A stretch of 64,000 nt of DNA, from the NCBI GenBank assembly GCA_902608115.1, contig CACLMT010000005.1, forward strand, positions 1 through 64,000, given 5' to 3'. Position 1 is the first letter of the stretch, and each line of letters starts with the position of its first letter. Source of the DNA: an uncultured SAR86 cluster bacterium (GTDB taxonomy: Bacteria > Pseudomonadota > Gammaproteobacteria > Magnimaribacterales > D2472). This document shows, piece by piece, positions 26,064 through 31,628 of this stretch. A program made the translations under genes and the position numbers. The notes under the pieces were generated by a model. That model was given only the letters and a program-made list of their open reading frames with translations. It made no database searches and was not told the DNA's origin.

Positions 26064-26606
26064 ATGTTTACAAGAATGGATCAAAGTACAAAAGAAGAAT
26101 GGCAGCACATTAGTGATCAACATATGCCCCATATTTTTGATATGCCTAAAAGAATTATTTCAATGTTAAAACAAACTAAAGATTTAACATTAGGTTTTGC
26201 AACAGACCAACTACATCATGCTCTCCAAACAGCTACTATGGCTAGAAGAGCTGGAGCAGAAGATGAAATGATTCTTATAAGTTTAATTCATGATATTGGT
26301 AAAGTTATTAATGTTCCCAATCATGGTCAAATAGCTGCAGAAATGATCAAGCCATATGTCAGTGAAGATGCTTATCATATTATTCGCACCCATCAAGATT
26401 TCCAAGGAGAACACTATTATCACTATATGGGAAAACCCCAAGATTTAAGAAAACAATATAAAAATGAATCATGGTATAAGAAAGCAACTGAATTTACTGA
26501 TGATTGGGATCAAGCTGCTTTTGACCCTGAATACGAACTAGATTCATTGGAATCTTTTGAGCCTCTAATAAATAAATTTTTTGCTGCTCCTCATTCAGTA
26601 ATTTAG
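26064..26606 (+). CDS. HD-domain protein, PhnZ/MIOX-like fold
   Basis: A 180-residue single HD domain. Metal ligands are visible as His in LHHALQTA, the HD pair in LIHDIGKV, His in PNHGQIAA, His in RTHQDFQG and Asp in DDWDQAAFDP. This six-ligand layout fits a two-metal centre like those of PhnZ (phosphonate oxygenase) and myo-inositol oxygenase. The C-terminal AFDPEYELDSLESFEPL is typical of PhnZ-like proteins. The Tyr and Glu that I recall PhnZ using to hold its substrate (Tyr24, Glu27) align to Thr and Phe here, so a phosphonate substrate is not supported. It could be an oxygenase or a phosphohydrolase. It converges with the Rieske operon and stands alone. Confidence 0.75.
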   Translation: MFTRMDQSTKEEWQHISDQHMPHIFDMPKRIISMLKQTKDLTLGFATDQLHHALQTATMARRAGAEDEMILISLIHDIGKVINVPNHGQIAAEMIKPYVSEDAYHIIRTHQDFQGEHYYHYMGKPQDLRKQYKNESWYKKATEFTDDWDQAAFDPEYELDSLESFEPLINKFFAAPHSVI

Positions 26607-26685: not shown

Positions 26686-27858
26686 TTAATTTTCAATTAA
26701 CAGATCTGAGTTAATCTTACTTATAGACTTTTCGTTTGGTTTGTTATCTATATTTGAAACAGGAATATATTTTCTAATTTTATTTGCGCTATCTATAAGG
26801 CATATTTCAGATTCTGCTAAAGGACCAGTTACAAACCCTGAAGTACTCATACCTTCTTGAACTAAATTAATAAGCTTTGTATCTTCTTTATTAACTTGTC
26901 TATTGATCCTCCAATTTAAATAACGGGCAATTTTCATTTCTCTTCTATGATCTGGAAGAGCATAAGGAATTTCTCTTATCATTGTCGTAGTGGAGTTAAG
27001 TGGAATAAATTGCATAAAATCCATTTGTTCTGGATAGACATCAAATGCAAGATTAGGCCACATCCGATAGTAAAGCCACAATCTTTGCTTATCTTCATCT
27101 AAGTGTTCTATCTTGGGAATAAATTTATTATATAGTTTATTTGATAAGTTGTTCTTTCTTATTTTTCTTCCATCTCCCCACATTTTATGGATTAAACCAC
27201 CATTTGGACTTACCTCCAATCCATAGCTTTTACCTACCAAAGCTGACAGGCCGGCATGGGCAACAGGGATATGGAGGGCATCCACATAGTTATCTGCTAT
27301 TTGTTTCCAGTTAACTAATCTGTGACGCATAGTAACTCGTCCAAGTGGTTCAAGCTCTTCAAAACGATAAGGTTTAATTTCTTCTAAATACGGACTAAAT
27401 TGATTTGCAACGCTTGGGCCATCTGTTGAAATTAATCTAACAAATATAAATCCTTGAAAGATTTCCATCTCGATGGGTTTTAAACTATGTTTTGACTTAT
27501 CAAGTTCTTTGAACTCATCTTGGTGTGGCACTTTAATTAAATTTCCCTGAAGGTCATACCCCCAAGCATGATAAGGACAAGAAATTCTTTTTTTGCAATT
27601 CCCTGAATTTTTATCAATTAATTTAGTAGCTCGATGTGAGCAGACGTTATGAAATGCGCGGATAACATTATCATTACCCTTAATAACAAGAATGCGTTCA
27701 TGAAATATATTTAAAGTAAAATAATCCCCAATATTAGGGATGTTAGATGTATGACAAATAAGTTGCCAATTGCAAAGAAATAAACTGTTTTTTTCTAATT
27801 CAAAGAACTCATTACTAGTATAAGTCCATGCAGGTAAACTTTTTGATAACGTCATCAT
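26686..27858 (-). CDS. Rieske non-haem iron oxygenase, alpha subunit
   Basis: Ring-hydroxylating-type oxygenase of 390 residues. The Rieske [2Fe-2S] cluster is bound by CSH and CPYH (NVCSHRATK and ISCPYHAWGYDL). The mononuclear iron site is the N-x-x-D-x-x-H pattern in DNYVDALHIPVAHAGL, near residue 190. The start follows the guanidine-hydrolase stop with no gap (TAG ATG ATG), so translation is coupled. No ferredoxin or reductase gene is adjacent, so electrons must come from elsewhere. Relatives include N-demethylating oxygenases for betaine and carnitine as well as aromatic hydroxylases; the operon suggests a nitrogen-containing substrate. Confidence 0.88.
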   Translation of the reverse strand: MMTLSKSLPAWTYTSNEFFELEKNSLFLCNWQLICHTSNIPNIGDYFTLNIFHERILVIKGNDNVIRAFHNVCSHRATKLIDKNSGNCKKRISCPYHAWGYDLQGNLIKVPHQDEFKELDKSKHSLKPIEMEIFQGFIFVRLISTDGPSVANQFSPYLEEIKPYRFEELEPLGRVTMRHRLVNWKQIADNYVDALHIPVAHAGLSALVGKSYGLEVSPNGGLIHKMWGDGRKIRKNNLSNKLYNKFIPKIEHLDEDKQRLWLYYRMWPNLAFDVYPEQMDFMQFIPLNSTTTMIREIPYALPDHRREMKIARYLNWRINRQVNKEDTKLINLVQEGMSTSGFVTGPLAESEICLIDSANKIRKYIPVSNIDNKPNEKSISKINSDLLIEN

Positions 27859-28719
27859 CTAAGATCTAAGTAAGGGTCTAGTTAAACACGTAGGTCCACC
27901 TTCACCCTTTTTACTTATTTCATCTCCTTTATAAGTCCTAACAGTACAGCCTGATTTTTTTAAATCATTTTCTACATTAGGAATATTTTCTAGCATGATA
28001 ATTGATCTAGGTGCAGTTGCCAAAACATTGCACCCCATCAATGAATATTCTTTGCTTGAAACCTTCACAAATTCCATGCCTAAATTAACTAGCCAATTTA
28101 TAAATGATTTAGGCATAAGTGGCTTATATATTAGAGCTAAATTTTTATCGAAAGGTGAGATAATTGACATCAAATGAAGAACATCTTCAGGATGATCTGG
28201 CTCAGGAAGCTTCACAATATGAAGATCAATGCCAGGACCTAATATTTTCTTTAATTGATTTATCCCTTCAAGATTAGTTCTCGATCCAAGACCAACTGCT
28301 GCATGGTTATTATCAATCCATATAAAGTCACCACCTTCAAGTGTTCCAGGCGGTTTAATTTGTCCTGCAACCCTGTGACCCATTTTAGATAATGTATGGA
28401 AATTATCTATGGCTTCTGGCGTTCTAGAAGCTCTTCCCATATTACACAAAATCAAGCCTTTTGGAGATATCAAAACGCTATCTCTAGCATAAATACTATC
28501 TATGGTTAGATTATCAGAGGTAGGTAAATCAATGATTTTAATATCATCATCTTCAAGCAATTCTCTAAATTTAGTAAATTCTATAACCGCGTCTTTGAAA
28601 TTAGGTTTTGAATGAAATCTTAATCTCTTCCATTCACTGGCTAGCTTTTTGTCATTTACAAAGCCAGATTCAGGATTTCTAATAGCAACCTGAGCAATCT
28701 TTGAGTATTCATTAAACAT
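27859..28719 (-). CDS. Guanidine-modifying hydrolase (DDAH / arginine deiminase superfamily)
   Basis: A 286-residue pentein-fold enzyme of the amidinotransferase superfamily (COG1834 type). The catalytic Cys is in GGPTCLTRPLL at the C-terminus, the His in DVLHLMSI (about residue 180), and acidic residues in TLEGGDFIW. An N-terminal asparagine/aspartate block (YARDSV) is also conserved. Family members cleave the guanidine group of arginine, dimethylarginine or agmatine, giving citrulline-type products. Full arginine deiminase is about 400 residues because of an extra helical domain, so dimethylarginine dimethylaminohydrolase or a related enzyme fits the length better. It sits between an amino-acid permease and the Rieske oxygenase. 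Confidence 0.78.
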   Translation of the reverse strand: MFNEYSKIAQVAIRNPESGFVNDKKLASEWKRLRFHSKPNFKDAVIEFTKFRELLEDDDIKIIDLPTSDNLTIDSIYARDSVLISPKGLILCNMGRASRTPEAIDNFHTLSKMGHRVAGQIKPPGTLEGGDFIWIDNNHAAVGLGSRTNLEGINQLKKILGPGIDLHIVKLPEPDHPEDVLHLMSIISPFDKNLALIYKPLMPKSFINWLVNLGMEFVKVSSKEYSLMGCNVLATAPRSIIMLENIPNVENDLKKSGCTVRTYKGDEISKKGEGGPTCLTRPLLRS

Positions 28720-28726
28720 AGTTATG

Positions 28727-30016
28727 TTAATTTTTTAAGTAGGCATATATAGGCATGCCAATTAAGATCAACAAGAAGGAGTAAAAGACTATTTCCATTC
28801 CAGCACCCCAAATAGCAAAAAAAGCATATAAGAAGGTTCCAAGTGATAACAAAATAGCATTAGTTCTTTGTTTATTTTTAACATCATTTTGTAGAAACTT
28901 AAATTCTGCAATTGCGCAAAAAGCATAGGCAATTAAAGTTGAAAGTGTTGAAAGCATTGCCAGAAATACAAAAGCATTAATTAGCCCTTTTGTATAGTTC
29001 ATAATTAAAAGGAAGCTAACAAATATTCCTGCTAGTATGAATGAAAAAATTGGTGTTCCTGTCTTAGAAAGTATTAAAAATTTTTTTGGTAGCAATCCGT
29101 CTCTTGCTGCTGCAAGGGAAAGGTTACCAGCTGTTAAAGTATTTGCATTTAGTGAACCAAGAGTGGAAATGAGAGCCCCAATACTAATCACTGTTCCTCC
29201 AACAACTCCTAATATCTTTGTTGCGGCTAATGCAAAAGGAGCTGATGAATTTATTAGTTCATTTGCAGGAACAATTACTGCTATTGAAATACTTACTAAG
29301 ATATAAAGACACAGAATAGTTAAGACTGATGCGATTAAAACTTTTGGAATAGTTTCTTTTGGATTAATGACATTATCAGCTGGTACAGTAGCGGTTTCAA
29401 TTCCAATGAATGACCACATTACTAATGTTGTAACAGTTGCTATTAATGTAAATGGGTGTATGTTGCTTGGATTTAAGGCTGGCAAATTTGCAACATTAAA
29501 ATTTGTAACTCCTAAAGCAATGATAAAAATTAACGGTAGTAGTTTTAATAGAGTAGAGATAACCTGAAATTTTGAGCTATTTTCTAGACTGCGAATATTG
29601 AGCATAACGATTGCCCAGACAAGTATTAGAGATGATATCAAAGAGAGGATAGATGAGTCTGTTATAGATGGGATGAAAAAACCCAAATAACCAACGAAAG
29701 CAATTGATATGCCTGCTATTGCAGAAATGCATGCAACCCAATAGGTCCAGGCAATTATAAATCCTGCAAAATTTCCAAGTCCTTCATTGGCATATACATA
29801 AGGTCCACCTGTTTTTGGAATGCGTCTTACCAACCTAGACATAGTCAGAGCCACAAGTATTGATCCACCTCCAGCTATTAACCAGCCACTCAATCCTAGC
29901 ATTCCATATGGCGCAAGCAGAGTCGGCATCATAAAAATACCTGAGCCAATTGCACAGCCTACGGCAATTGACCAACCCCGCCAAAAACCAATAACTTTAT
30001 TATTTCCTGAATTCAT
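28727..30016 (-). CDS. APC-family amino acid permease (AdiC/ArcD-like)
   Basis: Inner-membrane transporter with about twelve helices, 429 residues. GCAIGSGIFMMP in the first helix is the substrate-binding GSG motif of the APC superfamily, and TGGPYVYANEGLGNFAGF matches arginine/agmatine or lysine exchangers such as AdiC. I chose the ATG rather than a GTG five codons upstream, as the conserved region starts soon after. It is the first gene of a three-gene minus-strand operon and is separated from the guanidine hydrolase by seven bases, so a guanidino compound or arginine is the likely cargo, possibly by exchange for ornithine or citrulline; this is inference. Confidence 0.87.
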   Translation of the reverse strand: MNSGNNKVIGFWRGWSIAVGCAIGSGIFMMPTLLAPYGMLGLSGWLIAGGGSILVALTMSRLVRRIPKTGGPYVYANEGLGNFAGFIIAWTYWVACISAIAGISIAFVGYLGFFIPSITDSSILSLISSLILVWAIVMLNIRSLENSSKFQVISTLLKLLPLIFIIALGVTNFNVANLPALNPSNIHPFTLIATVTTLVMWSFIGIETATVPADNVINPKETIPKVLIASVLTILCLYILVSISIAVIVPANELINSSAPFALAATKILGVVGGTVISIGALISTLGSLNANTLTAGNLSLAAARDGLLPKKFLILSKTGTPIFSFILAGIFVSFLLIMNYTKGLINAFVFLAMLSTLSTLIAYAFCAIAEFKFLQNDVKNKQRTNAILLSLGTFLYAFFAIWGAGMEIVFYSFLLILIGMPIYAYLKN

Positions 30017-31538: not shown

Positions 31539-31628
31539 GGAGAGATGGCAGAGCGGTTGAATGCACTGGTCTTGAAAACCAGCAAGGGGGCAACTCCTTC
31601 CAGGGTTCGAATCCCTGTCTCTCCGCCA
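31539..31628 (+). tRNA. tRNA-Ser (anticodon UGA), CCA encoded
   Basis: Acceptor arms GGAGAGA and TCTCTCC pair fully, with G as discriminator and an encoded CCA. The anticodon stem CTGGT/ACCAG encloses CTTGAAA, giving TGA at 31573-31575. The long variable arm (about AGGGGG ... CTCCTT) and the T-loop GGTTCGAATCC confirm a class II serine tRNA. A TATAAAAT -10-like element at 31514 lies at a suitable distance upstream. The convergent ABC permease gene ends one base after the CCA. Confidence 0.97.

Follow-up and report, generated by a model that had tools for sequence, protein, structure and literature searches.

A conserved permease–hydrolase–Rieske gene cassette in SAR86 bacteria, with a putative role in the breakdown of an arginine-type guanidino amino acid

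Introduction

In DDAH and in arginine deiminase (ADI), two arginines (R85 and R132 in DDAH) hold the carboxylate of the substrate, and a cysteine, a histidine and acidic residues act on the guanidino group. In Pseudomonas aeruginosa, the permease gene PA1194 presumably adjoins PA1195, which encodes DDAH; we know of no Rieske gene in the methylarginine cluster of this organism. Methylarginine catabolism in P. aeruginosa has been described with DDAH (PA1195) and a regulator, DdaR (PA1196) (PMC8657755). MgdH/MgdL have recently set a precedent for removing a methyl group oxidatively from a guanidino nitrogen, methylguanidine and N,N-dimethylguanidine being the only tested compounds acted upon (PMC12508155). 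Among Rieske oxygenases, some members of Group V carry a Cys-x-x-Cys at the mononuclear iron (PMC10952381); in CntA the bridging residue is Glu205 and Tyr203 contacts the ammonium, an aromatic residue being a trait of Group Va (PMC7948474).

Here we describe a locus of a SAR86-cluster gammaproteobacterium in which a permease, a hydrolase and a Rieske gene stand together. The trio builds on a known kind of permease–hydrolase pair, of which the added Rieske gene is a variation. In P. aeruginosa too an APC permease gene presumably lies next to the hydrolase gene, and the hydrolase has the same DDAH-fold catalytic residues; however, the two hydrolases are only ~22–24% identical, and whereas P. aeruginosa has DdaR, no regulator was matched among the neighbouring ORFs scanned beside the SAR86 cassette. 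ArcA shares with the SAR86 hydrolase its fold and the RD and GGPxC motifs, but is ~410 aa long (against 286 aa) and has Asp280 where the hydrolase has Met. The best sequence and structure matches of the Rieske enzyme are CntA, GbcA and Stc2 of Group V, at ~25% identity; the cassette enzyme shares Tyr203 of CntA, but lacks the Cys-x-x-Cys, has Asp for the bridging Glu and falls in a separate clade. MgdH/MgdL are a 2-oxoglutarate dioxygenase and a lyase, unlike the Rieske enzyme of the cassette. AdiC and the cassette permease have a GSG motif and Trp202 in common, but AdiC Trp293 is replaced by Asn. The original prediction knew of no described pathway with these three genes, and the open-access literature that we searched, a scope outside which most subscription journals lie, holds no description of the set.

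Results

The source genome of the window is 1.25 Mb long and ~78% complete. All three ORFs are complete, without internal stops, and are transcribed from the minus strand in the order permease, hydrolase, Rieske (Table 1). The adjacency first proposed for the genes, with gaps of seven and zero bases, is confirmed, and Pfam bears out the family names given to them: an AdiC-like permease, a DDAH/arginine-deiminase-type enzyme and a Rieske oxygenase. On the opposite strand the cassette is flanked by genes for a PhnZ/MIOX-like HD-domain protein and an M20 peptidase. Beside the Rieske gene there is no beta-subunit gene, and an Rfam search of the window detected no guanidine riboswitch, a single tRNA being the only match.

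Table 1. Features of the cassette region in the window (the whole stretch of 64,000 nucleotides that was analysed).
Feature	Position	Strand	Remarks
APC-superfamily permease, distantly AdiC-like	28727..30016	-	429 aa from ATG; PF13520 (AA_permease_2) 1.5e-45
Alternative permease start, GTG	30031	-	would give 434 aa
Permease–hydrolase intergenic gap	28720..28726	-	7 bases
Putative compact guanidine-modifying hydrolase, arginine deiminase/DDAH fold	27859..28719	-	286 aa; PF02274/PF19420; Pfam matches ADI 5.9e-18, DDAH_eukar 1.4e-13
Rieske oxygenase alpha subunit, distinct clade	26686..27858	-	390 aa; PF00848/PF00355; Pfam matches Ring_hydroxyl_A 2.7e-32, Rieske 2e-20
PhnZ/TmpB/MIOX-like HD-domain putative oxygenase	26064-26606	+	
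tRNA gene	31539-31625	+	adjoins the variable slot holding the cassette

Within the SAR86 genus the hydrolase is present in 15 of 25 relatives of the window genome, and all 16 genomes that carry it (the window genome and these 15) show the same three-gene order and strand. Despite the constancy of the trio, the surroundings of the 15 loci differ: downstream lies an 874-aa gene that, judged by eye, looks TonB-dependent-receptor-like, a cysteine-synthase/acetyltransferase-like pair, or nothing. In three genomes without the cassette (G003, G005 and G021) the two flanking genes are ~240 bases apart and the remaining region is colinear, from which it follows that the whole block, together with a 198-aa gene, is missing as one piece; in G010 and G018 the cassette is missing and the slot has other contents. 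The ten genomes without the hydrolase include very incomplete ones, and not every absence is secure. The permease–hydrolase–Rieske block is a true cassette.

The ~198-aa gene, which apparently encodes a membrane protein, lies directly upstream of the permease gene in most SAR86 relatives (L064 7016-7612 and equivalents) and is missing with the cassette at empty sites; it was not seen in the window. The PhnZ/TmpB/MIOX-like protein of cassette-bearing relatives is 87–91% identical to that of the window, the genes around it being mostly less conserved, and its gene is retained also at sites without the cassette. The content of the slot varies among genus-mates and in this resembles an integration hotspot.

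Scanning ~85,000 species genomes with the hydrolase profile, a procedure that detects only relatives sharing one of two conserved peptides, yielded 56 loci, including those of the SAR86 genus. A permease gene lies immediately upstream of the hydrolase gene in 51 of these (in SAR86, SAR92, Kordiimonas, Algoriphagus and an acidobacterium), and a Rieske gene follows the hydrolase gene in 25 (in SAR86, part of Porticoccaceae/SAR92 and Kordiimonadales). The identical trio order recurs in SAR92/Porticoccaceae and in the alphaproteobacterial Kordiimonas; the Proteobacteria that bear it are, judged by their names, marine lineages. Given the same order and strand in 15 genus-mates, in other families and in a second class, the arrangement is not a matter of chance, and the neighbourhood, whose lack of conservation in relatives would have spoken against the original prediction, is conserved far beyond the genus (in Porticoccaceae and Kordiimonas). 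That prediction had also joined the genes into a three-step pathway. The conserved trio upholds this in part; yet 26 of the 51 permease–hydrolase loci show no Rieske gene beside the pair, and the gene was lost repeatedly in SAR92, so the Rieske enzyme is dispensable rather than a required step.

Five changes are required to place the loci with a Rieske gene on the hydrolase tree, in which Kordiimonas, mostly bearing that gene, is basal in the proteobacterial part. This fits one ancestral association followed by several losses, mainly in SAR92: the Rieske gene is apparently ancestral in the proteobacterial branch. The permease–hydrolase pair is older and wider than the trio. Elsewhere, plasmid homologues are at most 37% identical, and the one annotated neighbourhood inspected, that in Rhizobium, contains genes for an aminotransferase and for an amine ABC transporter, with no Rieske gene.

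The losses in SAR92, where the pair stays behind, could be taken to mean that the Rieske gene is a mere neighbour with an unrelated substrate, carried on a variable island, as could the varying content of the slot and the adjoining tRNA gene. We consider this highly improbable: alpha- and gammaproteobacterial cassettes have the trio in common at 58–63% Rieske identity, the hydrolase stop and the Rieske start are no more than a few bases apart in the majority of loci, and no Rieske orthologue (58–69% identity) was found outside the cassette in 31 hydrolase-bearing genomes, nor without the hydrolase among the genus-mates searched. From its distribution, and from the occurrence of the Rieske gene only in the cassette, we regard the pair as the core and the Rieske gene as an accessory bound to it.

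Three further neighbourhoods deserve description. In many SAR92 loci without the Rieske gene (L081-L108) the pair is followed by genes for a ~428-aa protein, a metallo-beta-lactamase-fold protein and a beta-lactamase-family protein, and this set is itself conserved. In Algoriphagus a different Rieske oxygenase, with the motif DNYLEGFHIPFVH, is encoded divergently from the permease–hydrolase pair (L110 977-2083 (-); also L112, L113 and L115), which suggests that genes of these kinds became associated a second time. In Kordiimonas sediminis (L103 2684-7625) the genes directly preceding the cassette, which share its strand, encode an OPT-family peptide transporter, an Xaa-Pro dipeptidase and an M24 peptidase; their presence hints that the substrates may stem from peptides.

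The hydrolase profile and P. aeruginosa DDAH align over almost their whole lengths. The DDAH residues D60, D66, R85, E114, R132, H162 and C249 correspond to D74, D80, R99, E128, R147, H182 and C278, each of them invariant in 28 homologues from SAR86 to Rhizobium. Because both carboxylate-binding arginines are conserved, an arginine-type amino acid is favoured as substrate. Met184, also invariant in the 28 homologues, takes the position of DDAH K164 and of ADI Asp280, the second guanidinium-binding aspartate; a methionine here fits a substituted guanidinium better than a free one. R79 stands at the position of DDAH Glu65, as in ADI. The AlphaFold model (pLDDT 94) gave arginine deiminase as its VIA fold match with Z 32.5 (rmsd 2.1, 276 aligned), followed by nnhA (Z 29.9), DDAH (29.7) and ArgZ (29.6). 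In the ~78%-complete window genome the protein is the sole PF02274 enzyme.

Membership of the named families was rejected: the hydrolase scores 74 and 58 bits against NCBIfam dimethylargininase cut-offs of 340 and 450 bits, and 49 bits against the 489 of the arginine deiminase family TIGR01078, Asp280 of which is Met184 here. Residues and predicted fold nonetheless suggest a hydrolase that modifies the guanidine group of an arginine-type amino acid, in neither named family by the tests made, and the retained catalytic set and arginine pair agree with the C–N cleavage originally proposed. DDAH-type hydrolysis of mono- or asymmetric dimethylarginine is a candidate activity.

The closest solved relative of the permease is AdiC (PDB 1.9e-54), the GSG motif and Trp202 of which are kept. 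As a member of the AdiC family proper it was rejected, with 228 bits against the 574 of the NF007929 equivalog and a score below the subfamily cut-off as well. At the position of AdiC Trp293, which stacks on the guanidinium, Asn is found in 43 of 51 homologues, that of the window included, and Trp in six; among the sequences inspected, those of Algoriphagus and Acidobacteria have the Trp. The replacement hints at a shift of substrate in the proteobacterial branch, the one with the Rieske gene.

These data bear on a simpler account, by which the pair serves plain arginine uptake and deiminase-like, citrulline-yielding nitrogen scavenging, while the Rieske enzyme modifies the product, for example as a hydroxylase of citrulline or of an amino acid formed further downstream, with no role for methylation. 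Arginine deiminase is the top structural match (Z 32.5), R79–D80 and GGPTC resemble ADI motifs, and of the 14 SAR86 genomes searched for ArgG, which would recycle citrulline, 11 have it above cut-off (the incomplete window genome does not). The invariant Met in place of ADI Asp280, the distance from the curated ADI cut-off (49 of 489 bits) and the Asn of the SAR86-type permease (43/51) all speak against it, and we hold plain arginine scavenging to be unlikely.

The Rieske ligands (C73, H75, C94 and H97) and the mononuclear iron site (H196, H201 and D326) of the oxygenase are all invariant, as are the bridging residue D193, where Group V has Glu205, and Tyr191, the equivalent of CntA Tyr203. 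In place of the Group V Cys-x-x-Cys at the iron site are Ala or Thr194 and Ile197. By sequence the nearest solved relative is the carnitine monooxygenase CntA (PDB 2.1e-38), and the best matches overall are CntA, stachydrine demethylase and GbcA. The AlphaFold model is poor (pLDDT 59), probably because the alignment is shallow; a fold search with this weak model placed stachydrine demethylase and CntA on top, with ring-hydroxylating dioxygenases nearly tied. In the tree, cassette oxygenases are monophyletic, on a long branch apart from SAR92-clade paralogues; the latter do carry the E-C-x-H-C motif. Two assignments were rejected: to the GbcA/CntA type, on account of the missing Cys pair and bridging Glu, and to glycine betaine monooxygenase GbcA (NF058607, 128 of 670 bits). 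By these sequence comparisons the cassette oxygenase is a separate Rieske clade without a described close relative. The motif of the known quaternary-ammonium N-demethylases is missing from it, and oxidative N-demethylation, as originally put forward, is a plausible candidate activity.

A divergent oxygenase clade is also what might be expected if the substrate of the hydrolase were a marine guanidino or amidino amino acid other than arginine, of algal or invertebrate origin, the side chain or ring of which is oxidised by the Rieske enzyme before or after hydrolysis. The trio-bearing Proteobacteria are marine by name, and the fold family takes unusual substrates such as 2-nitroimidazole (nnhA, VIA Z 29.9). 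Conservation of the carboxylate-binding arginine pair and of the full DDAH/ADI set points instead to arginine-like length and head group, which leaves this account improbable. By sequence, a methylarginine, arginine and a marine guanidino compound are all candidate substrates.

As the original prediction had it, the cassette has no ferredoxin partner: neither a ferredoxin nor a reductase gene, nor any other redox gene, is adjacent. The ~78%-complete window genome yielded no Fer2 domain, and the Fer2 search in relatives returned only a stand-alone, ferredoxin-sized protein of ~112 aa and a ~411-aa protein; no dedicated reductase for the Rieske enzyme was identified by this search in the window genome and genus-mates. 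Glutathione-dependent formaldehyde dehydrogenase is above cut-off in 6 of 16 cassette-bearing SAR86 genomes versus 0 of 10 without the cassette, a co-occurrence that is no more than suggestive, the genomes being incomplete and the link weak. No glutamate-methylamide synthetase scored above cut-off in the SAR86 genomes searched, hence there is no evident use of released methylamine by that route.

Discussion

In the reading that we prefer, to which we give an even chance, the cassette serves to take up and break down an arginine-type guanidino amino acid, and the role of the Rieske enzyme is to turn a related compound into a substrate of the hydrolase by oxidation, probably N-demethylation. The AdiC-like permease would import the amino acid. 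C278 and H182 of the hydrolase, residues found in a protein of predicted fold, would then attack the guanidino carbon, giving an amine or ammonia and a ureido amino acid; from arginine or an N-omega-substituted arginine the latter would be citrulline. On the accessory branch the Rieske enzyme would oxidise a related compound of the same pool and so make it cleavable by the hydrolase; the simplest such reaction would be the loss of an N-methyl group as formaldehyde. With no dedicated reductase encoded beside the Rieske gene, we propose that the enzyme would draw electrons from a ferredoxin that also serves other enzymes of the cell.

Counting for the import and dismantling of such an amino acid are the unity of the cassette, the residues and fold of the hydrolase, M184, the matches of the Rieske enzyme and its Y191, and the lone PF02274 enzyme. 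Counting against it are the missing Group V Cys pair and Glu, the persistence of the pair without the Rieske gene, the weak formaldehyde and methylamine links and the poor Rieske model. As to the substrate, N-omega-methylated arginines are our leading guess. A more specific proposal, that a new Rieske family N-demethylates a methylarginine resistant to the hydrolase, such as symmetric dimethylarginine, and so feeds a DDAH-like hydrolase, we think rather improbable; it is a guess, one in keeping with the accessory role of the Rieske enzyme.

If our preferred reading is right, free methylated or otherwise substituted arginines from degraded eukaryotic proteins would supply nitrogen to streamlined ocean bacteria, and a Rieske clade with a putative, probably non-aromatic nitrogenous substrate would be added to those known. 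Culturable Kordiimonas (K. gwangyangensis DSM 19435 and K. sediminis KCTC 42590) carry the cassette and are open to direct experiments. SAR92 provides a natural, built-in comparison, since some of its members, such as H921, have the full trio and others, such as H231, show no Rieske gene beside the pair. Should the symmetric-dimethylarginine proposal be true, some of the most abundant bacteria of the surface ocean would possess a complete oxidative and hydrolytic pathway for methylarginines.
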